From contig OZ024870.1 of the NCBI GenBank assembly GCA_964017185.1, positions 29,969,621 to 30,033,620 of the forward strand: DNA of 64,000 bases, given 5' to 3'. The stretch is from Rugalucina vietnamica. Its lineage: Eukaryota; Mollusca; Bivalvia; Lucinida; Lucinidae. Of this stretch, positions 3,514 through 64,000 are shown piece by piece (within the stretch, counting starts at the first letter, position 1; every line of letters starts with the position of its first letter). The translations under genes and the position numbers were made by a program. The notes under the pieces were generated by a model, which was given only the letters and a program-made list of their open reading frames with translations, was not told the DNA's origin and made no database searches.

Positions 3514-4660
3514 GCTCTACATGGCCGTCGTTGATCTGAAGAAAGCAATTGATCGAGTCCTGAGGGATGTAATCTGGTGGGCAATGCGAAACTAAGAATT
3601 GACGAATGACTAGTGCGTCTGGTCCAGTCTATGTATAAGATCATGAGAAGCAGGGTTAGAGTGGGCAGTGGATACAGTGAGGAGTTTGATGTCAAGGAAG
3701 GTGTTCATCAGGGCTGTGTCCTTAGCCTGCTACTCTTCATCATTGTGCTATAGGCTTTATCCAGGGAGTTCCGCACAGGCTGCCCTTGGGTTCTGCTGTA
3801 TGCAGATGACTTATGATATGACACTTGTCGAGTCCATGGAAGAACTAACTGTTAAGTCGAAGACTTTAAAAGCAGAGATGGAGAGGACAGTTCTTTGATT
3901 GAACATAGGGAAGACAAAGATCATGGTCTCTGGCCTCAATCTGAACCTTCTGAAAAAAAATCTGGAAAGAATCCCTGTGGCGTCTGTCAGACAGGTGTAG
4001 GAAGAAATGCTTCTGTGGTGGATGCTTGTCCTGGATCCACAAGAAATATAGTGGAATCAAAGGCTCCTTGTGCCATGATCCCGATTTCAGCTGTGCTGGC
4101 TGCCTACGACAGGCGCGTCCCAGTGAAGGAGGTTCTAGTTGATGACGAAACAGTTAAGGCTGTACCGGAGTTATCTGGGAGACATGCTTTCTGCTGGCGG
4201 AGGTTGTGAACTGGCAGCAGTCACGCACTGCAAATCGGCTTAGGGCAAGTTCCGCCAACCACTCCCTCTCCACACCAATCGTAATCTGCCAAGTTTGACC
4301 AGAGGTCGAGTGTATCCAACTTATGTACTGCCACATGCAGCAGAAACATGGGCAATGACTGGCTACTCTTTGTCGCCTGCAGCGCAATGACCGTGCAATG
4401 ATGTGCTCTATCTGCAATTTCAAGGCGAATGATGAAGTAAGCTCAGACTCCCTTCTCTCAAAGCTTGGACTTCAGGATATGGTATGGACATGTAGAGCAC
4501 GTTAAAGGCTTTATTTCTCAAGTACGAAAGCTAAATTAGTTGCACAGCATAAATCCGGCAAGCTTAGGAAATCATGGGATAAAGTGTTGTTGGACGATGA
4601 ATAGAAGGTTACAATGGATACTGCCGATCCGTAGAATCGCACAGAGTAGAGAGGTCGTCT
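3514..4660 (+). pseudogene. Decayed non-LTR (LINE) reverse transcriptase fragment
   Basis: Reading across frames gives the hallmarks of a LINE RT: VVDLKKAIDRV (near 3525), VKEGVHQGCVLS (near 3693), LLYADDL (the catalytic YxDD-type box near 3797), then a Cys-rich stretch with CGVCQTGVGRN (near 3980) and a C-terminal tail with LSKLGLQD (near 4457). Stops and frame changes interrupt it repeatedly (for example just after the YADD box). There is no 5' UTR or endonuclease domain, so it is 5'-truncated and dead. I recognise the family as a LINE common in marine invertebrates but cannot assign the clade without a search. Confidence 0.85.
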
Positions 4661-5149
4661 AAGAATAAAAATAAAACTGAGATCCTTTAAGAGCAGCGAG
4701 TATATTTGTGAGAAAGGTGATGGGCCATACCGCGGTTTCGGCTATTCAAGCCTCTTCAGTGACCCTTTAGATTTGGCAACATGGAGCCAAAGCAAATCGT
4801 TGAACTTTTGCAACTTTTAACAGAAGGAGATTTGTCAAACAAGTCCAACCCTCAGATGAGGACAAAGGACTATAAAAAGGATTTGATGATTATATGATCA
4901 GTCGACAGACTTAGTAGATGCAAGCAAATAATTGATGGGAAATATTTTGTGGGAAGCTCACTACAAACATAAATTGTCAATTTTTAGTTAAAATAGATGC
5001 TTAGGTATGCACTATAGGGATCAAACATGCGTTTTTATATGATTAATACATTTTGATATTCAGTTAGCCAGTGAACACGTGCTAGCTTAGAAAGAAAGTA
5101 CAATGACATATATCTTGTATTAATGACATTAATTTTACAATGAAAGTGA

Positions 5150-6030
5150 TATTTATAGACAATTTATAGAATGAACTTTCTTAACTAAACTGATACAGTC
5201 TTGAAGTATTTAAAAATGAATATTCATGTAATATGCTAATTGGCTGTTGTTAATGTATGATTCTTTATGGTGTAGAAATATCAAAGCCACAGTTATCAAT
5301 CTCATTTAACATTTTACAGCATTCAGAGAATGGGATGTGATTTTTTGTTTCAAGTTTTTTTTGGCAAAAAAATAAGACCTTTTAATATTCATAAATATGC
5401 AAATGAAGTAATTTGCATATTTGATCTCCATTGGAAAGAACAAACATTACGCTTTATTTTAGTATCAATACTGTTGTTCTATGATGAACAGAACCTAAGC
5501 TATAAGCAATTAACTGTATGAATTTTTTAAACTTAACTGATATACAAGGGCATACAAAGTCTTAAAATGTTTTGAAATGAATATTCATGAACATGCTAAT
5601 TAGCTTTTGTTAATTTATGATAATTTATGGTCTAGCAATATCAAAGCCATAGTTATCCATTTCATTTAACATTTTACATTGTTCAGAATATAAGATGAGT
5701 TTTTTTTTCTCACTTTTTAGCCAAAATAATAAGATCTCATTAATATTCATAAATATGCAAATGAGGTAATTTGCATATAAGAACTTTATTTGAAAGAGCA
5801 ATCAGTTTGGTATCAACATTATTGTTTTATGATGAAAAGAACCTAAGATATGAGCAATTTACTACATATACTCCTTTCATAACTGTCGGCCATTTTGTTT
5901 TTTGGCGGCCATCTTGAAAATGGCGGAATTTCAAGTGGCCAGGGATCAGAATTTAATGTGTGTCATGTAAAGAAAATATGGTGTAAATTTCATGCTTGTA
6001 TCATCAACTGAAGTATTTTCTCATTAAGCA
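5150..6030. repeat. Right inverted arm
   Basis: Reverse complement of the arm at 2140-2890, again with two direct sub-units. Divergence between arms is moderate, so the palindrome is not recent. It ends in sequence matching 2150-2330 in reverse (GGCCAGGGATCAGAATTTAA near 5937). Confidence 0.75.
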
Positions 6031-7012
6031 ACTCCACTATGTAGCGTATTTTTGTGTATTTTTATCTGTCAGAGGTAATGTTTTTAATTTCTGATAGTTT
6101 GATTCAATCTGCATTCAGTAAAATAAACATCAACTAAATCAGACCATACACTTTATGTTGCTTAGCAACCGTAGAATGGCAGCGAAGGTGTCGTGGCCGC
6201 GAAAACCACTTTTCAAAAATTAAACCAATAAACATAAAGCTTTGGTATTTCTTTGGTGGTGTTTTAAATAGCTATCTATATACATGTTTGTGTAATGTCA
6301 TTTTAGCCAGAACTTTCTAGGCAACTGCAATGTTCATACAGCCCCACGCGTGTCAACTGTTGCTTAGCAATGCCAGAACCTATGCGATTTCGGTTTTATG
6401 CATTTTCCACAGATTTTTGTTGCTAGGCAACGAAATATGTTATCTGAGATTTGCATTTTATAGCAAGTAGTTTACAAAGCGTCAATGGCAGGTACAAATA
6501 GGCGTATAAATATTCAATTAAACAAACTAGATGTCAAATTGTAGCAGAAATTGTATCTCTATCCCCATTTTTCACCCTTTGATCGAGAAATTTTCGTCAT
6601 TTTTTCAACTTTGATTGGGTGTCATTTAAAATATATCAATCAGATTACATTATCTTGAACTTTAAATGCAACCATTTTAAGTTCGGTTTAAGAACATTGA
6701 ATACGTTTATTATGGTTTTTCTGTCACCATGGCAACGGTTTTAAGAGTCGTGGCCAAGTGCCTTTACACAGTGTTCTATTGTTGCTAGGCAACAGGAAGT
6801 AGAGCACGTGACTAGGTATTGAACTGTCTCGCAGGGAGCGAATTGAATTTATGTTGCAAGAAAGCTAAATCAAACTTTCGTAACGTGTTCAAACAAAACA
6901 TTTTGGCCAATATTGCATTACTTATTGAATGACCCTGTATCTTTTTAGAACACCTATGAAATTGCTAAGTTAACTGTTTGGAAAAGGAGCATCATAGAAA
7001 AGAAGATTCCAA

Positions 7013-36500: not shown

Positions 36501-39500
36501 GGATATACCTATTTTTCTTATTTTTGCTCCAAAACATAGAGGCGGTTCTAACGTGTACCCACAATCTATGTTTTGAGCAAAAATAAGAAAAATATCAAAA
36601 TTTTTCCGATGAGATTTTCAATTTTTACAGCTGAAAAAAATCTCTGTATATTGCATGGGCAAGTTTTCGTAATGTTGTTTATCTCGTCTTAACTCCAGAA
36701 TAATCAAGTGGCTTGATTAAAAATTATGGCCATACCAACCTGTCCATTTATATTTGCTTTCGTGATGAGGTTTCCAATAGCGTACGACATACTGTAACCC
36801 ATGTATATTCCCCAGTTGTATATACCTAGTGCAGCTCCTCGAAGTTCAGCAGGGAAAATGTCGGCCATTATTGATGCCACAAATGGTGTACACCCAGCTT
36901 CACTAAAATAACAATGATGCATAAAATTAGTACAGTAACTCTGGAAATTATTTTTTCATGGTATCTTAAATATTAATGTTTAAATATACAGACATTTTTT
37001 TATCATTTATAAACCGACAATGTTTTGGACAAATGGTATTGTCCAAAAATTTGGTGACTTAACTATAGCATTAACACCGAGAAACTTGTAAAATGCATAA
37101 AATATTGCCATGTGAGATACATGTAATACCTTTGATAGAATACCTTGATTAAATTTAAATGGATACATCGAAATATTGAATGTTTTTTTCTACCTTTTCT
37201 GACATGATAGTGTAATTTTATTGAACTGCTTAAATGGTCTATGCAATAACATTGCAACCAAAATGGTCTATGCAATAACACTGCAACCAAAATGGTCTAT
37301 GCAATAACACTGCAACCAAAATGGTCTATGCAATAACATTGCAACCAAAATGGTCAATGCAATAACACTGCAACCAAAATGGTCTATGCAATAACACTGC
37401 AACCAAAATGGTCTATGCAATAACATTGCAACCAAAATGGTCTATGCAATAACATTGCAACCAAAATGGTCTATGCAATAACATTGCAACCAAAATGGTC
37501 TATGCAATAACATTGCAACCAAAATGGTCTATGCAATAACATTGCAACCAAAATGGTCTATGCAATAACATTGCAACCAAAATGGTCTATGCAATAACAT
37601 TGCAACCAAATGACCTGGTCAGGGTCCATTTTGCCATTAACTATCCTAGTTGGATGGAGCATTAAAGTATAAGATTCTTACCCAAGCCCTAGTCCAAATC
37701 TGAGTATAACTAACTGCCAGTAGCTATCGATAAACCCAGTAAGTAGCGTCATAACAGACCAAAACAATAGACATCCTCCCAACAACATCTTACGGTTATA
37801 TCTGTCAGCAGCAAAGCCAATGAAGATCCCAGAAAACGTGTAGATTACTATGAAGATGGGTCCGGCGACAATTTGATAGGCAAAGCCTTGTCCATTGTAG
37901 TCCCATTTACACACATATTCTTTAAGAGTTGTGTTGTGAGATGTTGTGTTGATGTATATGACTTCACACCTGTAAACAAAGAAACAAATATGATTATTCT
38001 TGGATGAGAAACTCTCTGTTATCTGAGACGCGACACAAGAAAAACGGTCTCGGAGGTTTCCAACCAGGTCTGACACAAACTGGTCTGTACAGCCACAGAA
38101 TCAAATGTCAGGTATAAGTAGAGGAGGCTTTTTACTATTCGTGTGGCGAAAACAAAGGTGCTGATCAGCTTCACAGTTACTGCGAAGCTGATCTGCACCT
38201 TTGTTTTCGCCCAGGCAAAATCTGATTTTCTCATGACACAGTTCATCTTATGTAGGGCCAAAGTAATATTACTGACTACCCGTACACTGGATTGGTTGTG
38301 TAGGGCATCATCTGCACATCAGTGCAACAGTACTATAAATGATTTAAATTTTATTACATATTGCATAACTGTTTTCTCTATCATGCCAGACAGAAATGCA
38401 AAGAACATGTACATTTAAATCCTTAATTGCATTGTTAAATGTTGTCTTCCTGTGACCTGCAATGTCCAGTTTACCTGTTTAGTTAACAGAACATGGAACC
38501 AAAAGTGACCTTTGACACAATGTTTACAAAATGGGATTAATATCGCCTTAGTTGTTTACTTGGGTGGTTACAATTTTGAAGGACAGTTCGGATGTCATGA
38601 CATCATAATGTTTGGTTAATGTTCCATAAAATGTAGGCAATGTCCCTACATTACCTTTGACGTACAGAATCAATTCAAACAAACAAAGAAGTTTTCTACT
38701 CTTACAAATCTTGTGTTTTGGCTTTACACTTTACATCTCCCAGCTGATCTTCAGTAAACGACGAGTTCATCAGACATCCCTGATCTCCGAAGTGTAACTC
38801 CTGTGCCATAGGCTGGACTGTAATGGCCAGCATGTAACGATCCAGCTGGTTCAGGAGGTACGTCACCAGGAACACCAGTAACGTGTACATCTGGTATCCT
38901 GTTATCTTCTTTAAAAACATCACTGGGAAAGAAAAGAGAATAAGGGAAAGATGTTCATTGGGATGTTTTAGATGAAATACTTCAAGTTAATTTGGCCATG
39001 CCTTTAAGTTTGAAACTTTATTCAAGTTTGTTGAATCTATGAAATACTGTTGATTTATTCACAACTGAGAATGAGATAAAGCCAAAATTCTGCCACCGAC
39101 AGAGTGGTATTACACAAAAAGAGTTCTATTTGAACTACCGGGTATTTGGTTTTGAACAAACAATAAAAGACAAATTTACACTCTCACAGTTTCTTCCAAT
39201 GCTTTGGCCAGTTTCTTCCAATGCTTTGGCTTTGCATTCATAAATGCATTTATAAATGAAGAAATAAGGCTTAAAGGTCATGTGTGAAATGACACTAATT
39301 CACACACTTTAAAGCAATGAATGATGTGTTAGCTTTTACTCCAACATGTGTAATGATATTTGCCCAGTATTTACATACCGTCCTTCTCTTTGCTGATGTC
39401 ACCCTTTGGAATCAAAGCCTCCTTCTCCCCTCCCTCTGTAGAATAAAGACAGAACTAATATGAGCCACGTCATAAGAAAACCTATCCATTGGGTTTCTGA

Positions 39501-42500: not shown

Positions 42501-45500
42501 CAAGTACCCACAATCTCTGTTTTGAGCACAAAGAAGCAAAATATCAAAAATGTTCTACTAAATTTTTTTCAATCTTTAAAACTTAAGAAAAAAATGTATA
42601 TCACATGTTTTCGTAATGTCAATTTCATAGATTAAAAAGCACAGCAAGCAAAATAAAGAAACTTATAGTTATTTCATATGAAATCTACCTAATGAGCCAT
42701 ACATGTATCATATACTGGTACTGTATATACACAGTAAGCTTGAATGAAATTTCATATGAAATGACCAAAGGTGTATGACTGTTTATCATATGACCATCTA
42801 ATAATTATCGAATTGCCATTTAAGTTTACCATTACAAAAACATGCCCATGCAATATACAGAGATTTAAAAAGTGAAATTTTTCAGTAGAAAATTATTGAT
42901 ATTTTTCTTCTTTTTCCTCAAAACATGATTGTGGGTACATGTTAGAACCACCTCATTGAGGCGGTTCTAACGAGTACCCACAATCTATGTTTTGGAGTAA
43001 AAATAAGAAAAATAGGTATACCCCTGTAAACCCAAGTTTTACTATATAAAAGAGGGGTATGAAGGGGTATACATTTCACAGGCATAATTTTCTGATGCCG
43101 TTCATCATTTAAAAAAGTCATCATGGTCTTATCATAACTTCCCTCAAAAAACTCATGTGTGGTCATATCATATTCATCATATTATTGTCAAAGTATAACA
43201 ATCTGCTAAACGAAAGCACAGTCATATGATATAAACTTATTTTTTTCTACAAAATCACCTTTTTTCCTTCTTTTTAAAATCATTCCTGCAAATGAAGAAG
43301 AAATTATCGGCCATTACCCAACATTCATTTTCAAACTGATATAGAATCAAGAAATTTATACATTTGACAGTACTCACAATAAGTGAAATCCTAGAAGAAT
43401 CCCAGCTTATAATATCAAACTAAATCTTTTTGCTCAGTCCTCATTTGTGCACATAATATGAAAATATGAATGTGCAAAAATGTTACCACAACAGCTTCTA
43501 AGCTTGTTTCATAAGGAGCCTGACAAAGTTATGACCACAAAAATATCAACCTGTCAAAATAGTGTCCAGTGTGTGGCATGTATAGCCTGAAAGAGGGCAG
43601 CCAAAATCAACAAGAAGGAATAGCCATCTGAAAGGTACTCAGCTTTGATATTTATCTGCCCAGAAAACACACACTGAACAGTGAGGTTTCCAATCAGACT
43701 GCACATAACAGAATCAAAGGCTTGTCCAAGTCATCAAAGTGCAGTTTATTTGCCATACTGTAGGTTTTGTAGCTGTTTTTCACCTGACTGGACTAGAAGC
43801 TTAAAATTTTGGATATAAGTAGAATAGGAGGTACTATCCATGTAGCAAAAACAAAGGCGTAGATCAGTTCTGTTGTGCAGTTACTGCACAGCTGATCTGC
43901 ACCTTTGTTTTGGAAAAGGCATTATTCAAGTTTTGTTCTGTATTTCACCTGACTGGACAAAACTGTCACTCTCTAGCAATTGAGCTGTGTCACGAGAACA
44001 CCTGTTTTTTTTTCAGGTTTCCTGGTAACTTTTTTCATGCTTAGGTCAGATGACTAAAATTTATCCTGCTCATAAATGTTAAAATGCCAGTTTTTAACAT
44101 TTATGAGCAGGAAAAATTACAGGCTTTACTTATCTTAACATGTATTTTCCACCAATTTATTTCTCTATTTATGAGCAATTTAAATTTCATGCTCAGATGA
44201 GTTGAGCTAGAAAATATTTTTATAACCTCGGGGCCAGGTCTGACACAAACCGGCCTGTAAAGTCACAGCGAAAGACCAAAAGCTAATAATTTTTTTATTT
44301 AGAAGGAAGAGATAATGAACAAACCAAGAAGTGAATGCAAAGGCACTGTTCAGATATGCTCATCTGTGTACGCACGTATGACTGGTGTGTTCAGCTACAG
44401 GAGCTAGTTTGAAATTCTATATGAACTTCAAGAGATGAAAACTAGCTTGATATTTCTAAATGACAGGCTAGAGCTCTTGAAATTCTCTATCAGTATGAAG
44501 AAAGGAAAGAACAATTTGAAAACATGAGGTAAGCAACAACTAGCATTATCAGGCAAAAATGCTCCTTAAGCCCGTCAGACACTCAGGAGTTGGACTTACG
44601 AGTTAAGCTCCGTCCACTTTTTTGGTGAACTCATAGCAACTCGTAGAGAACTCACCCTATGTTGGCGGTTGTCGTACAGAAGTCTTGCCAACTCGTAGCA
44701 TGTCGTGGAAAGACTACGAGAATTTTAAACGGTTTAAAATTCTCGTAGCATGTCGTAGCAACTCGCCGTCTAAAAGTGGGCGGGGCATGGGCGGAACATA
44801 CCTTGTACTGGTCTCGTAGCTTATCGTACAGAACTCGTAGTAATGTCGTGGGATGTCGTGCATTCTCGGCGTCTTGGCAAGCATGGCGAGTTGCCTACGA
44901 GATACCTACGAGTTGCTACGAGATACCTATGAGTTGCTACGATATTGAAGGAGACTTCTCACGGGTTCCTACGACATCTCACAAGTTTACCATGACATTC
45001 CTACGAGTATCAGCGAGTTCCTATTACTTATATCATAGGGATGTCGTGTAGAACTCGTAGGGCATCACAACTCGTAACAAGTAGCCCAGGGGCAACGATC
45101 GCTCACCTGAGAGTCAACAAGTACAGTCACTGGACAAAGTAATTGGGGTTTTTACCATATATGGGTATGGTGGCCAATACTGGCCATCTTGGTCATGTGA
45201 CCTTGAAACCCTACTTACATCAGCAGAAGAGCTCTTGTCTGGATTGTGTATCCTCTTTTCTGCCATTTTGGTTCACGTGAAAAAAAACGTCTAACAAGGT
45301 CAGGGTCCTATAAATACCCCCGGGGTGGGGCCATATTTGACCCCAGGGGCAAGTTTGGCAGGATTTATGTAGAGCTCCACATGACAATGTTGTATATCAA
45401 ATATACAAGCTTTGTGTCATGCTGTTGCAGAGAAGATTTTTTCATATATTTCCTATATAAGTCTATGGTAGATAATGACATGCCTGGGGCGTGGCCTGTA

Positions 45501-48500
45501 TGGACCCCAGGGGCACCGTTGGCAGCATTTATAAAGGAGAGGATTATACATTGGTCAACACAACATATGAAAGCTCTGGGCCATATGGTTTTGGAGAAGA
45601 AGATTTTTTTATGTTTTTCCCATGACGCCCCCCGGGGCGGAGCCCGTATGGACCCCAGGGGCACGGTTGGCAGGATTTATAAAGAGGACCACTATACATT
45701 GCTACACACAAAATATGAAAGCTTTGGGCCTTGTGGTTTTGGAGAAGAAGATTTTTTAAAGTTTTTCCCATGACACCCCCAGGGCGGGGCCCGTATGGAC
45801 CCCAGGGGCACGGTTGGCAGGATTTATAAAGAGGAACACTATACATTGCTACAAACAAAATATGAAAGCTCTGGGCCTTGTGGTTTCGGAGAAGAAGATT
45901 TTTTTTATGTTTTTCCCATGACGCCCCGGGGCGGGGCCCATATGGACCCCAGGGGCACGGTTGGCAGGATTTATAAAGAGGACCACTATACATTGCTACT
46001 GACAAAATATGAAAGCTCTGGGCCTTGTGGTTTCGGAGAAGATTTTTTTTATGTTTTTACCATTGTAAGTCTATGGGAGCTAATGACCCCGGGCGGGGCC
46101 TTTTTTGACCCCAGGGGCATGATTGGCAGGATTTATATAGAGGACCACTACACCTTGCTACATACAAAATATGAAAGCTTTGGGCCTTGTGGTTTTGGAG
46201 AAGATTTTTTTATGTTTTTGGCGGGGCCCGTATGGACCCCAGGGGCACAGTAGGCAGGATTTATAAAGAGGACCATTATACATTGCTACACACAAAATAT
46301 GAAAGCTCTGGGCCTTATGGTTTCGGAGAAGATGATTTTTTAAAGTTTTTCCCATGACGCCCCCAGGGCGGGGCCCGTATGGACCCCAAGGGCACAGTTG
46401 GCAGGATTTATAAAGAGGAACACTATATATTGCTACAAACAAAATATGAAAGCTGAGCCTTGTGGTTTCGGAGAAGAAGATTTTTTTATGTTTTACCCAT
46501 GACCCCCCCAGGGTGGGGCCTGTATGAACCCCAGGGGCACGGTTGGCAGGATTTATAAAGAGGACCACTATACATTGCTACTGACAAAATATGAAAGCTC
46601 TGGGCCTTGTGGTTTCGGAGAAGAAGATTTTTTTATGTTGTTATGTATGACAGTTACTTGTCGAAAGATGTGCGTTCAGTACTGGTAAACTTCCCAAGGG
46701 AGTATGCCCAGGAAAGTATGATGTTATACATATGATGTTTACTTGTTGTCCTTAGCAATTATTTACTTTTAGTGTCCCAGATATTGGACATAAACAGGTT
46801 GTTTACTTCAGAATTTTCTAGAAATTTCAAATTGTTCTTTGACAGAAAAGTCCGGAAAAATCTGGAAGAACCTGGAAAGATGTAGAATCTTCTAGAAAAA
46901 TCTTTTTTATGTCAAAAGAATATTGTGGAATTTTCTGGAAGGATAATGGCCTCTCTAGAGTATTCCAGAACATTAAATTTTGGTAAACAACTTGTTATTT
47001 TTAGTATATGATATCATAGAATTTGCTGGAAGAATCCTGAATGTTCCTCAGTGCTATATAAGGGCTACAAATTTTCATAAGGACAATCTTTGGGTACTGT
47101 TACTATTAAGAAGTCAAAATCTATCTTACTGGAATTTAAACTTATTCTTGGATTACTTTGTGATATTCGATTCTGGATTGGGACATAGTGTGCTATTTTG
47201 AAACAAACTTTAATTCTTGGGATCAGAAACTGATACAGACTTGTGTTAAAAAAATTCTGAGGGACATTCAGACATTCTTTAAGGGAATTAACATCTTGAA
47301 AGGTATTGTACATTCATTTTTGTTTGATTGTATATATGCTTTTGATTGTTTCACATGTAATTACTGGTTAAATCACTTCTAAATAGATTTGTTAAATTTT
47401 AAACAAAGCTTGTTGCTGGCTAACCAACTTGTTGGTTTCCTTAATCTTCTAGTTACGCCTGGCACGTAACAATGTTTTTCCCATTGTAAGACTATGGGAG
47501 CTAATGACCCCCGGGGCGGGGCCATTTTTGACCCCAGGAGCATGATTGGTATGATTTATAAAAAGGACCACTACACATTGCTACATACAAAATATTAAGG
47601 CTCTGGGCCGTGTGGTTTCGGAGAAAAAGATTTTTTTATGTTTTGCCCCATCACGCCCCCGGGGCGGGGCCTGTATGGACCCCAGGGGCACGGTTGGCAG
47701 GATTTATAAAGAGGCCCACTATACATTGCTACACACAAAATATGAAAGGTCTGGGACTTGTGGTTTCGTAGAAGATTTTTTTATGTTTTTCCCATTGTAA
47801 GTCTATGGGAGCTATCTGTTGCTATGGAAACCAGAGTTCCAATCCGACCTGGCCCAAAACCTAATGCAACCATCCCCCCCCCCCCCCCAATGATGCTTTA
47901 GATAAAATTTGATTACAATCAGCCATGTTGTCTTAGAGATATTTGAGTTTGAAAATGTGAACGGACGCACGCACGCACGAACCCACGATCAGGTACATCC
48001 GTGGCTATGCACTATGTGGCAAAAATCACTATGTGGCTACCAATTTAAAGTGGCAAAATTCTATCCAAGTATCAAGTGGCAATTCTTCTACCAATATAAA
48101 GGGGCAAAATTCTGTCCAATATTCAAGTGGCAACTCTTTTAAGTGGCAAATGTCTAAATTTTTGTGTGGCAAATCTTATAATTGGTCTACAAGAACAAAT
48201 TTTAAGTGGATTTCGTTTTTCACTGCACTAGGGTTATCCCCCTTACTATAGCTTTTGGACAGTATCAATGTGGAATGAATACAAGTTTTTTTTATTTTCT
48301 GTCCCTAACTTTAGCCCCTTAAATTTTAGGCACATAGTATATGGACACCAAGTAGCCACTTAAATTTTAGGCACATAGTATATGGACAACAATTTGCCAC
48401 ATAAAACTTAGCCACATGGTGCACGGACAGAAAATTGCCACTTTAAAATAGCCACATTGTGCATGGGAGTTTTCCAGAAGCCACACTAAATTTGTCCAAA

Positions 48501-58595: not shown

Positions 58596-59512
58596 TGTTA
58601 GGTCCATGTTTGAAGATTCCAAAATACCCAATATGTACAAAACCATGCCAAACTATGCAAAATGGACTCATAACTACATGAAAATATTCATCTGGCCATT
58701 TTAAACTTTTCTACCAATTGTTATATATAATTGATTCAATAATATTGATTCTTTTAAAAGCTATTACTTATAATTTATATATATATAATCAAAGGGGAGT
58801 AACCCAATTAATTAATATATATTTCTTTCTATGTTTCTACAATTTATTATCTAGAACTTTGTAGAAGAATGTCATTGATTATTTTTATCACTGTTATATA
58901 ATTTAGAAGTATAGAAAATTCTATGAGCACTTTGTGGATAATTCCAGATGAAAATGGAGTGAGTGTTTTTTTTACCATAAGTTAAAAATATATTTGGACT
59001 ATGTATACTGAGATCTCAAAGGGTCTAGTGGACTCTCGTTTAGTCTTGATGGTCGTTGCGGCCTTGAATTCTCTCTGGAGAATTCTAAATTCTCTTTGGA
59101 GAATTTAAAAGAACTTTCGTTTAGTTCGTTTCTTTTCTAGAGAAAAGTTTATTATATCATTCTCTAGAAACCTGGAGAATTTCCTTAGATGTATAAATAT
59201 AGGTCCCAATTCAGTCGTAGGTATTCAGAAATTTGAAGTGATTTAAAGTATATAATTTTGGTTGTTTCACTAGTGTTTTGTGTGGATTAAAATATACATG
59301 TGCTCATATTCTGGTTACTGGATTGTGAACTTACATTTGAGGGACAAGGACTTATTTGACATTAACTTTGTAAGTTATTTATTTATTTATTTACTTATCT
59401 GTTTGTTTGTTTGTATGTATTTGCAGCATTAATTTGTTTGATTAAATATTGTTAAGTTTAAATTACTTGGTTGTTTTTCGCTGTACCTGTCTAGTTACGC
59501 TAGGTCGTAACA
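58596..59512 (+). mobile_element. 5' LTR of the Gmr1-like element
   Basis: The right edge is clear: CTAGTTACGCTAGGTCGTAACA region ending 59512, five bases before the primer site. The left edge at TGTTAGG (58596) is chosen because it mirrors TAACA and gives a length (917 bp) near that of the related solo LTR; it is tentative. TATA box near 59191. Confidence 0.6.
59162..59198 (+). promoter_or_regulatory. TATA box with degenerate HSE-like units upstream
   Basis: TATAAATA at about 59191-59198. Upstream, CTC-ta-GAA-ac-CTG-ga-GAA (59162-59179) keeps the 5-bp HSE step with mismatches, in the same place relative to TATA as the arrays of the solo LTR. Confidence 0.45.
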
Positions 59513-59517
59513 GATTT

Positions 59518-59535
59518 TGGGGGCTGAGCCGGGAT
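59518..59535 (+). promoter_or_regulatory. Primer-binding site, tRNA-Pro-like
   Basis: TGGGGGCTGAGCCGGGAT matches 15 of 18 bases of the tRNA-Pro primer site known from many retroelements. The following TGAAC extends the complement into the T-loop (GTTCA). Confidence 0.7.
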
Positions 59536-59610
59536 TGAACATTTTGTGCACCTATTTTATTCTGAATTTGAAAAGATATTTATTGCTTGTCATACCAGCA
59601 AAAAGCAACC

Positions 59611-61659
59611 ATGTTATTCAAACTTGAAGATTTCATTGCTGCGCCTTCTCAAGAGCTGTTAAACTTGGCCAAAAAGAGTGATCTTTTAGACATTGCTAGT
59701 CATTATAGCATACCTGATGTCAAAACATCTATGTTAAAACGTGAAATTAAGAATGTTATCATTCAGTTTCTTGTTGATGAGGAATTTTTTGAACCCTCAG
59801 CTACATCTCTTATTATGGTCTCACAAACCGACATACAGTTGAAAGAGTTAGAATTAAAAAGGCATCTAGAACTGGAAAAAGTAAGATTAGAGTTTGAAGA
59901 AAAAAGAAGGGCAGATAAGGAAGAAAGGGAAGAAAAACTTGCAAGAGATAAGGCTGAAAGGGAAGAAAAACTTGCAAGAGATAAGGCTGAAAGGGAAGAA
60001 AAACTTGCAAGAGATAAGGCTGAAAGGGAGGAAAGAATACAAATAGAAAAGTTAGAGCTTGAAAAACAAAAGTTAGCATTTGAAGAAAGGGAAAGAGAAA
60101 AACAAAGAGAAATGGAAGAACGAGAGAAGGAAAAACAAAGAGAGTTAGAAGAAAGGCTTGCAAAAGAAAAATTAGAGCAAGAGGAAAGAATTGAGGTTGA
60201 AAAAGAGAAAATGCATTATGAAATAAGAATGAAAGAGCTTGAATTAAGCAGTAAATCAATGCCTCCTGTGTCTTTTGATCCTAGTAAAGTATTTGATGTT
60301 ACAAAGCATATCAGGCTCGTTCCTCCATTTCAAGAAAAAGAGGTAGATAAGTACTTTTTACATTTTGAGAAGGTAGCAGAAAATTTGAAATGGCCAAAAG
60401 AGCATTGGACCTTGCTTCTACAGAGTGTTGTTATTGGTAAAGCTCGAGAAATTTACACTCAGCTTCCACTTGATCAAAGTTCAGATTATGACACAGTCAA
60501 AAATCTGATTCTTAAGGCTTATGAGTTAGTACCTGAAGCTTATAGGCAGAAATTCAGAAATTGTAGGAAAGAACATGACCAAACCCATGTAGAATTTGCT
60601 AGAACTAAGGAGCAATTATTTGATAGGTGGTGTTCTTCAAAGGATGTAAAGTCTGATCATGCAAAATTAAGACAGCTCATGCTTATTGAAGAGTTCAAAC
60701 GATGCATACACTCTGATGTCAAATCTTTTCTTGACGAAAGGGAAGTAGAAACTTTAGATGTAGCAGCACGATTGGCTGATGATTATGCTTTGACTCATAA
60801 GGTGTCTTTTGTAAATAAACCTTACAAGAAACCTTTTAACCCTCAATTTAAACCTAATACACCTCAGTCAAAACCATTTAACCCTCAACAGAGAAATAAT
60901 TCTCCTCAACCTAATCCACAACCACAAGCTGGACTAACAGCTGATAGTTCCAGTCCTTCACATAATCCTAAAAATAAAGATACTAGTGAAAACAAAGGTC
61001 AAAGATCCTCATACTCACCCCGGCTGTTTTGCAATTATTGTAAAGGTGACGGTCACGTCATTTCTGAATGTGAAACTTTGAAAAGAAGAAAAGAGAGACA
61101 AAATCAAAATAATTCTAGACCAACAGGTCTTACTTCTTTAAGGTCAAAACCACAGTCGATTATTCAGGATGAAAATCCTATTTTGGCCAAAACGTCTGCG
61201 ACTGATTGTATTATGGAGATTTATGAACCATTCTTATCAGAAGGTTTTGTGTCACTTACTAGTGATTCTGCCCAGTCTACCCCTATTAAAATCTTACGAG
61301 ATACCGGAGCTTCTCAGTCTCTTATTTTAGCAGATACCCTGCCTTTTTCCGAGAAGACTTCAACTGGGACAAGTGTCCTTATTCAGGGAGTAGAGTGTGG
61401 ATTTGTTAATGTACCGCTCCATAACATTTATTTGTCTTCAGACTTAGTTTCTGGTCCTGTGGCTGTAGGTATTAGGCCTTCTTTACCTTTTAAAGGTGTT
61501 CACTTGCTATTAGGCAATGACTTAGCCGGAGATAAGGTTGTGGTAAACCCACTTTTGACCAATACACCTTGTGAGGATCAATTGCCATTGAGCAGGAAAT
61601 TCCTGATCTTTACCCTTCATGTGCCGTTACAAGGGCTATGGCAAAAAAAGTCAAATTGA
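59611..61659 (+). CDS. gag: Gag-protease of the Gmr1-like element
   Basis: The first ATG is at 59611 (the frame opens upstream without a Met). The N-terminal helix is followed by a long charged coiled coil (residues about 70-210) with three identical 33-bp repeats (KAEREEKLARD type, 59923-60021). The capsid (about 225-405) includes VPEAYRQKFRNCRK, reminiscent of the vertebrate SCAN domain, which is reported to descend from Gmr1-type capsids. A Pro/Gln/Asn linker precedes zinc knuckle CNYCKGDGHVISEC (CX2CX4HX4C, about 474-487). The retropepsin has DTGASQS (about 563) and GNDLAGD. From about residue 655 this frame looks unlike protein, while the -1 frame resumes family-like sequence, so the true end is probably earlier. 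Confidence 0.87.
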   Translation: MLFKLEDFIAAPSQELLNLAKKSDLLDIASHYSIPDVKTSMLKREIKNVIIQFLVDEEFFEPSATSLIMVSQTDIQLKELELKRHLELEKVRLEFEEKRRADKEEREEKLARDKAEREEKLARDKAEREEKLARDKAEREERIQIEKLELEKQKLAFEEREREKQREMEEREKEKQRELEERLAKEKLEQEERIEVEKEKMHYEIRMKELELSSKSMPPVSFDPSKVFDVTKHIRLVPPFQEKEVDKYFLHFEKVAENLKWPKEHWTLLLQSVVIGKAREIYTQLPLDQSSDYDTVKNLILKAYELVPEAYRQKFRNCRKEHDQTHVEFARTKEQLFDRWCSSKDVKSDHAKLRQLMLIEEFKRCIHSDVKSFLDEREVETLDVAARLADDYALTHKVSFVNKPYKKPFNPQFKPNTPQSKPFNPQQRNNSPQPNPQPQAGLTADSSSPSHNPKNKDTSENKGQRSSYSPRLFCNYCKGDGHVISECETLKRRKERQNQNNSRPTGLTSLRSKPQSIIQDENPILAKTSATDCIMEIYEPFLSEGFVSLTSDSAQSTPIKILRDTGASQSLILADTLPFSEKTSTGTSVLIQGVECGFVNVPLHNIYLSSDLVSGPVAVGIRPSLPFKGVHLLLGNDLAGDKVVVNPLLTNTPCEDQLPLSRKFLIFTLHVPLQGLWQKKSN

Positions 61660-64000
61660 ATGATGGGATACAGGATATTGACTTAACTGACACTTTTATA
61701 GGTCAGTCTTTTCATGATGAGATTTCAAAATCTCTTTCTTCAAGTCAAACTGACTTCAACAATCAAAGGTCAGACAATGACCTTTCACCTTCAATTTTTG
61801 ACCAAGGTCACGACCAAATGTCAAGGTCACAACTTTGTCAAGAACAGCACAGTGATCCTGAAATCTCGCCTTTATTTGAAAGGGCTTTAGATGAAAATGA
61901 AATTTCTCAGGTTCCTGTTTGTTTTTATGTCAAAAATGACATCTTAATGAGAAAATGGCGTCCTCCTGATGTTTCAGCGGAAGACGAATGGACCATAAAT
62001 CACCAAATTGTGGTTCCTAAGGCTTATCGTCCTGAAATCTTAAACTTGGCCCATGAAACTCCCATGTCAGGTCATTTAGGGATAAATAAGACTTACCACA
62101 AAATTCTCAAGCATTTCTACTGGCCAGGATTAAAATCTGATGTTTCCCAACATTGCAAATCCTGTCACACTTGTCAAATGGTAGGAAAACCTAATCAGAC
62201 TATTCCAAAAGCTAATTTACAGCCTATTCCTGCATTTGATGAACCATTTAGTAGGATTATCATTGACTGTGTAGGTCCGTTACCCAAGACTAAATCAGGT
62301 TGCCAATATCTCTTGACTATAATGTGTGCTTCAACACGTTTTCCTGAAGCAATTCCACTCAGGAATATCAAGACGAAAACAATAGTTAAGGCCCTTGTGA
62401 AGTTTTTCACACTTGTAGGTCTTCCAAAATCAGTCCAATCAGATCAGGGTTCCAATTTTATGTCAGGAACATTTCAGCAAGTAATGCATGAACTTGGCAT
62501 TAAACAATACAAGTCATCAGCTTATCATCCTGAAAGTCAAGGTGCTTTGGAAAGATTCCATCAAACTTTGAAGAACATGATCAGATCTTACTGTTTTGAC
62601 ACCGAAAAAGATTGGGATGAAGGCATACATTTGCTATTATTTGCTGTCAGAGAGTCAGTACAAGAGTCTCTTGGGTTCAGTCCGTTTGAACTTGTTTTCG
62701 GACACACTGTTCGTGGACCTTTAAAACTTATGAAAGAGAAGTTTCTTTCAAGTAATGACAGTCCTTTGAACTTACTTCAGTATGTGTCTGACTTCAAAAC
62801 TAGATTGACAAAAGCTTGGGAAGTTGCTCGGTCCAATCTTAAGTCAGCTCAGAGCAAAATGAAGTTGCATTTTGATGAAAATGCTCAGAACAGAAATTTT
62901 GACCCTGGAGACAAGGTGATTGCTCTTTTGCCCATTCCTGGCAGGCCATTACAAGCTAGATATTATGGTCCATATACTGTTGAGAAAAGGTTAAGTGATG
63001 TAAATTACATTGTTAACACTCCTGGGAGGCGCAAGCAAAAACAATTATGTCATATTAACATGCTTAAAAAGTACATTGATAGGGATAGTGATAATGATAG
63101 TTCAGTTATTTCCTCAGTAAGCATAGTTAATTCTGTCCCTCATGAACAAAATCAGACAGACTTTGAAGAAATGAACTCTGTGAACTGTGAACCATTATCC
63201 TCAAAACTCCAGAATTCTGACATTCTGCATGACCTCGATCAGAAACTGTCACATCTAGATCCGGACAAGAAACATGAACTAAAACAATTAATTCTTGAAT
63301 ATGAGCACTTATTTCCGGACATTCCATCCAGAACCGATAAAATCTACCATGATGTAGACATTATTGAAGGAGCAAAACCGGTGAAACAACATCCGTATAG
63401 ACTTCATCCTGAAAGACAACAATATCTCAGGAAAGAAGTTAAGTATTTGCTGGACAATGACTTTATAGAACCTAGTCAAAGTGAATGGAGTTCTCCTTGT
63501 ATACTTGTGCCAAAATCTGATGGGACATTTCGAATGTGCACAGACTATAGAAAAGTAAATTCTGTCACAAAAACTGACACATTTCCCATACCAAGAATAG
63601 ATGACTGCATTGACAACATTGGTCACGCCAAATATGTGACAAAATTCGATCTACCGAAAGGGTTTTGGCAGTGTCCATTTACAGACAGTGCAAATGAGAT
63701 TTTAGAATTTGTTACTACAGAAAATCAATTTCGAGATAAACTGAAAGCGCTGAAATGTTGCTTGGATCGCTTGGTTAATAGTTTGATTTTCGGTCTGGAT
63801 GGGTGTAAAGCTTACATCGACGATGTCATCATCTACAGTGAAGAGTGGAAACAACACCTGGAGATCATCAGAGAATTCTTCTAAAGACTCAGTGATGCTA
63901 AACTGACAATAAACTTACCGAAAAGTGAATTTTGCCATGCTAATTTGACATTTCTAGGACATATTGTTGGACAAGGTCAGGTCAGACCTGTAGAAGCCAA
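61638..64000 (+). pseudogene. pol: Integrase-RT polyprotein of the Gmr1-like element (broken)
   Basis: First ATG at 61638, but the frame is open from about 61577. Integrase zinc finger: HETPMSGHLG...CKSCHTCQ (about 137-178). Catalytic D210, D269 and E305 (D,D35E). GPY/F module: RYYGPYTVEKRLSDVNYIV and CHINMLKKY (about 440-480). RT follows: WSSPCILVPKSDGTFRMCTDYRK (about 617-640, quoted in part as LVPKSDGTFRMCTDYRK), FDLPKGFWQ with D671, and YIDD at 726-729. The segment between D671 and YIDD is short and the usual PFG...F block is not readable. TAA stops the frame at 63882-63884, and RT-like sequence (NLPKSEF, FLGHIVG) continues in the same frame to the window end. Confidence 0.85.
61644..61650 (+). 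promoter_or_regulatory. Possible -1 frameshift heptamer
   Basis: A AAA AAG lies in the zero frame of gag-protease, 7 nt before its stop, where the pol frame overlaps. It could support ribosomal slippage, but see the finding on the frame break: the overlap may simply be mutational. Confidence 0.35.

Follow-up and report, generated by a model that had tools for sequence, protein, structure and literature searches.

In Arabidopsis and its relatives, the retrotransposon ONSEN/COPIA78 carries a high-affinity four-unit heat-shock element (HSE) in its long terminal repeat (LTR) and is activated through host heat-shock factors (HSFs) (PMC3907296, PMC5059998). Passages on its LTRs describe them as being without CG sites (PMC3907296), and its four-unit heat-responsive element (HRE) is described as having arisen through duplication of a proto-HRE (PMC5059998). 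In animals, Helitrons of Caenorhabditis are reported to hold over half of the HSEs in the C. elegans genome (PMC6927752), and the copia element of Drosophila is reported to be heat-responsive, with heat-shock consensus sequences in its promoter (Strand and McDonald 1985, cited in PMC3907296). Elements of the Gmr1 clade are described as marked by an integrase placed before the reverse transcriptase (RT) in a Gypsy-type element (PMC6238403, PMC8220671) and by a gag whose capsid part the SCAN domain resembles (PMC4592553). Here we describe an LTR in a 64-kb stretch of Rugalucina vietnamica DNA (the window, by which we mean the whole stretch analysed), placed on contig C2 of the 1.09-Gb genome G000. 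We consider it probable, from the arrangement of its motifs, that the HSE-rich region of this LTR is the U3 of a young Gypsy-type, Gmr1-like retrotransposon, built as an HSF-driven heat-shock promoter. By analogy, such a promoter would most likely work like that of ONSEN, in an unrelated clade.

The LTR belongs to a family that we designate A, and we regard it as a solo LTR because a search of the 64-kb window for a second LTR of this family found none. It has terminal TG...CA and a target-site duplication; 4-bp target duplications likewise occur at other family A copies. In full-length copies, gaattgggggct directly follows the 5' LTR (primer-binding side) and gaagaggggaag directly precedes the 3' LTR (polypurine tract). 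The features of the window copy are listed below, where fractions of 61 refer to distinct full-length family A LTRs, sampled as described further on.

46639..47471, + strand: solo LTR of family A of the Gmr1-like retrotransposon; 833 bp, TGTT...AACA, limits common to full-length copies
46635..46638, + strand: left target-site duplication ATGT, identical to 47472-47475
47472..47475, + strand: right target-site duplication ATGT, identical to 46635-46638
46811..46828, + strand: HSE array 1, perfect four-unit GAA-TTC-GAA-TTC; exact in 58/61 copies, with one further copy holding a differently spelled four-unit run; 1386 exact genome places
46845..46902, + strand: HSE array 2, 12 unit positions, step-type with GAA every 10 bp; includes the perfect three-unit run 46885-46897, present in 58/61 copies
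46918..46940, + strand: HSE array 3, five units with one mismatch; includes the perfect run 46928-46940, perfect in 50/61 copies
46958..46970, + strand: HSE array 4, three units, one mismatch in the window copy (12.5 bits); perfect in 41/61 copies
47019..47046, + strand: HSE array 5, promoter-proximal, six units with two single mismatches; 28-mer exact in 57/61 copies
47055..47062, + strand: TATA box TATATAAG, 8 bp after the end of array 5

The GAA units of array 2 start at 46845, 46855, 46865, 46875, 46885 and 46895, and array 5 reads GAA/TGC/GAA/ATC/GAA/TTC. In all 57 copies in which both were found (4 copies were unmatched), 8 bp separate GAATGTTC from TATATAAG, and the usual TATA spacing would put the start of transcription near 47085. 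At least three alternating GAA/TTC units at 5-bp spacing, the arrangement expected of a functional HSE, are present in the LTR, where distances show peaks at 5, 15 and 25 bp from GAA to TTC and at 5 bp from TTC to GAA. A strict 5-bp alternation over long stretches, together with step-type 10-bp spacing, is a hallmark of HSF trimers. The stretch 46811-47062 holds one CpG (observed/expected 0.18, vs 0.52 for the window). The original prediction had proposed an LTR promoter with HSE arrays and a TATA box, and this much stands, with the arrays common to the family. The perfect four-unit run, the two three-unit runs and the 10-bp GAA series lie exactly where it had put them; the six-unit run with two single mismatches also precedes the TATA box, at 8 bp rather than 9, and the limits of the LTR are wider than it had given. 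As a further observation, degenerate repeats, each about 147 bp long, form an array (window 45317-47795) into which the solo LTR is inserted and which resumes on both flanks.

Such an accumulation of HSEs is far beyond what base composition would provide. Dinucleotide shuffles of the 236-bp region that holds the arrays yielded a mean of 0.015 runs vs the three perfect runs seen, and at least three perfect runs of at least three units arose in 0/5000 shuffles of this region and 0/5000 of the whole LTR; the predicted excess of HSE density over shuffled sequence of the same composition is thus upheld. A single four-unit run appeared once in 5000 shuffles of the region and twice in 5000 of the LTR. 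Over the whole 64 kb, the expectation is 0.035 (present in 7/200 shuffles), in agreement with the earlier claim that a perfect four-unit match was not to be expected there. Three further three-unit runs lie in the window outside the LTR, at 2607, 5579 and 16353. Pairs of GAA at lag 10 number 10, vs a shuffle mean of 0.4 and a maximum of 6 (0/2000 shuffles reach 10). Graded sites, defined as a three-unit score of at least 9 bits, number 16 in the LTR, vs a shuffle mean of 0.62 and a maximum of 6 (0/1000 reach 16). The four 236-bp intervals densest in graded sites across the 64 kb, taken in 59-bp steps, all overlap the solo LTR.

The upstream regions of seven HSP70 genes from the same genome (L089-L095, 1.2-1.7 kb each) served as a positive control. 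These are seven of eight long HSP70 matches, the eighth (C11) being omitted, with no first-exon match listed for it. Perfect three- or four-unit runs occur in 6/7 of these regions and a four-unit run in 3/7. The window LTR has 3 perfect runs and L089-L095 have 0, 3, 4, 4, 3, 1 and 2; the best four-unit score is 20.2 bits for the LTR and 9.6, 17.2, 20.6, 20.3, 20.3, 15.3 and 14.5 for L089-L095; graded three-unit sites number 16 in the 833-bp LTR and 2, 16, 10, 10, 6, 6 and 3 in the same order. On account of these run counts, best scores and graded sites, the LTR ranks with the strongest HSP70 upstream regions, its motif strength lying within their range. An HSE-like run stands about 27 bp before the TATA box in four of the seven HSP70 regions (L090, L091, L093, L094), vs 8 bp in the LTR. 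The genome contains three matches to the HSF DNA-binding domain. We also observed that the intronless HSP70 gene (L089, G000:C1:64413500-64415200) has no upstream HSE run, while the six intron-bearing HSP70 genes compared have runs.

The arrays recur throughout the sampled family. Our sample comprises 63 full-length LTRs, 61 of them distinct and the window copy included: 29 were obtained by similarity to the HSE region (12 being both LTRs of six full-length stretches), 17 by U5 similarity, 14 as carriers of the HSE 18-mer without the U5 tag, 2 with the U5 tag and without the HSE tag, and 1 via the SCAN domain. Before counting, 39 partial LTR alignments were dropped, many of which ended at the edge of a fetched stretch, and truncated copies lie outside the counts. 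Every one of the 61 distinct LTRs has at least two perfect runs (four in 33, three in 22, two in 6), and each contains 10-16 graded sites. Retention of the arrays in other copies, on which the original prediction had laid weight, is thereby borne out, though they are kept no more than neighbouring bases. Mean 18-mer retention is lower in the HSE region (30.5/44) than outside it (35.7/44), which we attribute to indels in arrays 2 and 3, visible as indel-type variation among copies at 46861-46875 and 46926-46935.

Across the genome, the four-unit 18-mer of the LTR occurs at 1386 exact places (reversed control 0), the tag of the second array at 1120 and the U5 tag at 1084. The last of these is no neutral yardstick, because it was picked as kept in 44/44 of a sample partly chosen by U5 similarity. 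Places were counted by 18-mer tag alone, and the rest of the LTR was checked in fetched samples. Perfect GAAnnTTCnnGAAnnTTC is found at 1578 places (reversed control 114), 88% of which are the LTR 18-mer (1386/1578). With the other phase, TTCnnGAAnnTTCnnGAA, at 964 places (reversed control 88), the LTR 18-mer makes up 55% of perfect four-unit runs in both phases (1386/2542). Among the TTCnnGAAnnTTCnnGAA places listed, many read TTCATGAA...TTCATGAA and are scattered along C1; a perfect six-unit HSE pattern, sought genome-wide, was found at 0 places. Co-occurrence of tags was assessed on the first 62 Mb of C1, taking the initial 100 HSE places of the listing and, from the 100 U5 places listed, the 72 that fall in the same stretch. 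The HSE 18-mer is in register at 61/72 of these U5-tagged places, and the U5 tag is present at 61/100 HSE places. When 16 of the 39 HSE places without the U5 tag were fetched, 16/16 aligned to the LTR, 14 at full length. The HSE tag is missing from 11 of the U5 places; four of these were also fetched, and two of the four (L113, L114) retain other perfect runs.

Family A appears to be a young Gypsy-type element with a Gmr1-like layout, as judged from its coding domains, which were read from one copy (L009). The first open reading frame (ORF) of this copy encodes a SCAN domain (PF02023, E 1.9e-9), the gag trait of Gmr1-like elements. Its integrase lies upstream of RT, with H2C2, rve and p58 C-terminal domains in 3717-5000 and RVT_1 and RNase H in 5001-6326. 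The pol matches PF00078, PF17919 and PF17917, which we take to be Gypsy-type RT/RNase H families, and no Copia-type RT family was reported for it. The family also looks young: paired LTRs in six fetched stretches carry 0-9 substitutions over 817-831 sites, although L014, one of the six, comes from inside a tandem array and its LTR pair need not date an insertion, and 46 sampled LTRs, picked by similarity, show a median difference of 1.1% and a maximum of 2.1%, gaps ignored. In L014 the polypurine tract precedes the first LTR and the primer-binding side follows the second. Tandem arrays of family A were also seen at G000:C15:44639154-44675726 (seven SCAN copies at 6044-6062-bp steps) and G000:C5:67939569-67951937 (three SCAN copies, step of about 6050 bp). 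SCAN-coding places are abundant in G000, with 1268 candidates; 150 were scored, 150/150 lay above the Pfam cut-off, and many of these 150 Gmr1-like elements sit in long open frames.

Other Gmr1-like families provided a test of specificity, beginning with one in the window itself.

58716..59512, + strand: comparison LTR of a second Gmr1-like family (B), with no HSE run of at least three units

Graded sites in this LTR are near chance, their count being reached by 95/1000 shuffles. Runs of at least three units were likewise absent upstream of L085 and L087 (B), L086 (B-related), L082 and L083 (one family) and L081 and L084 (diverged), the regions for L081-L084 having been taken without LTR limits, so that an LTR may have been missed there. 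L086 is the strongest of these comparison regions: its best four-unit score reaches 14.8 bits, and its graded sites number 6 over 2.3 kb. The upstream region of family A copy L088 carries HSE runs. Because the other sampled Gmr1-like upstream regions are without three-unit runs, the putative heat-shock promoter appears to be a trait of one family among those sampled. The upstream regions of A and B are about 73% alike in a part that starts about 24 bp short of the LTR end and extends into leader and gag, and the remainder of their LTRs gives no BLAST alignment. The family B element itself (L080; window 58716-63884 and past the window end) is arranged in tandem (LTR, inside, LTR, inside, LTR); the unit recurs every 5730 bp, identity reaches 99.9% across 5285 bp, and the element has a SCAN gag and integrase before RT. 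Its LTR has repeated palindromes AATTCTC...GAGAATT upstream of a TATA-like stretch, unlike the HSE arrangement, and these are possibly sites of another factor.

How might a promoter of this kind operate? Under heat or other protein-damaging stress, trimers of host HSF would bind the five arrays, the last of which adjoins the TATA box, cooperatively and would fire transcription from the LTR. The RNA output of the element, and hence its copying, would be coupled to the heat-shock response. Solo LTRs, left scattered through the genome, would persist as promoters or enhancers inducible by heat; the window copy, which points antisense to a transporter gene, would be one of them. Binding by HSF, induction by heat and effects on neighbours are what we infer.

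Several observations weigh against the heat-shock promoter interpretation. The weights used for scoring were set by hand from HSF preferences, and were neither derived from a database nor measured in the species. Two of the HSP70 regions exceed the window copy in perfect runs and one has none. The array region has been lost through truncation or deletion in L112 and L115, the other two of the four U5-tagged places fetched. The four-unit tag (1386) barely outnumbers the adjacent non-HSE tag of U3 (1312). Selection on the HSEs was considered and rejected: among 44 distinct LTRs, omitting columns in which the window copy departs from more than half, core, spacer and other LTR positions show 0.0063, 0.0058 and 0.0053 differences per site, with no clear excess conservation. 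We do not claim post-insertion selection on the HSEs, because core conservation shows no such excess and the HSE tag is little commoner; the presence of arrays in the copies could be mere descent from one source.

A rival proposal, which we judge unlikely, is that a short GAA-rich unit in U3 was duplicated in tandem and palindromically, that the arrays are a side effect of this and are unused by HSF, and that basal TATA-driven transcription is independent of heat. The 10-bp series forms part of such a pattern, and the indel-type variation at 46861-46875 and 46926-46935 is consistent with it, as is the unexceptional conservation of the core bases. Slippage, however, fits array 2 and not five clusters in one 5-bp alternation with differing spacers; the peaks at 5, 15 and 25 bp (GAA-to-TTC) and 5 bp (TTC-to-GAA) and an LTR strength within the host HSP70 upstream range also speak against it. 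We give very little credence to the idea that the LTR captured the promoter of a host HSP70 or other heat-shock protein (HSP) gene and that the HSEs are not its own. The architecture is alike, with several runs and an HSE upstream of the TATA box, yet BLAST of the LTR vs the seven HSP70 upstream regions, HSP70 alone being compared, returned 22 matches of only 11-27 bp (best E 0.021), 14 of which overlap the HSE stretch of the LTR. By these matches, the LTR does not resemble a captured HSP70 promoter. Binding of the arrays by a different factor that prefers TTCnnGAA-like palindromes is similarly hard to credit: HSE units are short, and the half-sites of other factors are in part like them, but long strict 5-bp alternation with step-type 10-bp spacing is typical of HSF trimers, and runs of the same kind are present in the HSP70 regions.

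A more serious contender, to which we assign a real though lesser chance, is that the sites are capable of binding HSF while most copies are silenced or are relics without regulatory effect, the window LTR being inert. It is a solo copy, truncated copies occur, and conservation looks neutral. Against this, near-identical LTR pairs point to recent copying of the family, and because the HSE stretch of the window copy holds one CpG, CG methylation would find little target there and would be a weak brake. This possibility is in any case compatible with a heat-shock promoter in family A, since that interpretation concerns a promoter working when active.

The surroundings of the LTR contain one Pfam-supported exon of a transporter.

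37681..38076, - strand: transporter exon, MFS_1 (E 7.1e-10), antisense to the LTR

Between this MFS-like exon and the LTR upstream of it lie 8.6 kb, and the two have opposite orientations. No further Pfam-supported transporter exon was found among the window ORFs scanned (part of all ORFs), two more hydrophobic ORFs on the minus strand were without a match in Pfam, and a first exon beyond 47.5 kb was not identified. The placement of the LTR promoter in intron 1 of the transporter, as first proposed, draws no support from these ORFs, and the LTR could instead lie upstream of the gene. The suggestion of an antisense promoter agrees with this geometry and goes no further than geometry.

An HSE set copied more than 1000 times means that heat stress may switch on both the element and the DNA surrounding it. 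If the heat response is true, family A would be an animal LTR retrotransposon with an HSP70-grade promoter, and would connect environmental heat, in a direct and testable way, with the activity of retrotransposons and with a rewired heat-shock network. It is tempting to go further and to ask whether one family dominates the high-affinity HSF sites of the genome, forming a recently spread, genome-wide heat-shock regulon and also acting as a sink for HSF in competition with the HSP genes, with a burst of copies at each heat wave. We regard this as doubtful. It draws on at least 1386 LTR places, typically with three or four perfect runs per full copy; if true, the threshold and timing of the host heat-shock response would be shaped by family A, with most strong HSF sites in its LTRs.

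Set beside the described systems, family A shares with ONSEN an LTR in which a four-unit HSE precedes a TATA box and, by the published descriptions of ONSEN, a paucity of CG sites, one CpG being present in the HSE stretch of the window copy. Membership of ONSEN was rejected: the pol of family A is Gypsy-type and that of ONSEN is Copia-type, so family A may work like ONSEN and is not an ONSEN. For A. lyrata, a four-unit HRE and a gap HRE are described, whereas the family A LTR has five arrays, and the heat activation of ONSEN is reported as demonstrated whereas family A is known from sequence alone. As with the Caenorhabditis Helitrons, one transposon group holds a large HSE share (55% for the family A 18-mer), although HSE definitions differ and the shares are not directly comparable. 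Helitrons are DNA transposons, whereas the HSEs of family A lie in its own LTR promoter; for the worm, HSF-1 binding and gene induction are reported as shown. Drosophila copia is likewise an animal LTR retrotransposon with heat-shock sequences in its promoter, but these are described as weaker, where the family A LTR has many, making copia a weaker precedent. With Gmr1-like Ty3/Gypsy elements, family A shares the integrase upstream of RT and the SCAN domain in gag, as described in PMC6238403, PMC8220671 and PMC4592553; the passages at hand from these three papers make no mention of a heat-shock promoter. Among the open-licence papers listed for heat, HSE or HSF in combination with transposons, we found no animal LTR element with such arrays. 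HSEs borne by transposable elements are thus already known, and what is new here is their combination: a Gmr1-like LTR, several HSP70-grade arrays within it, and more than half of the perfect four-unit HSEs of the genome.
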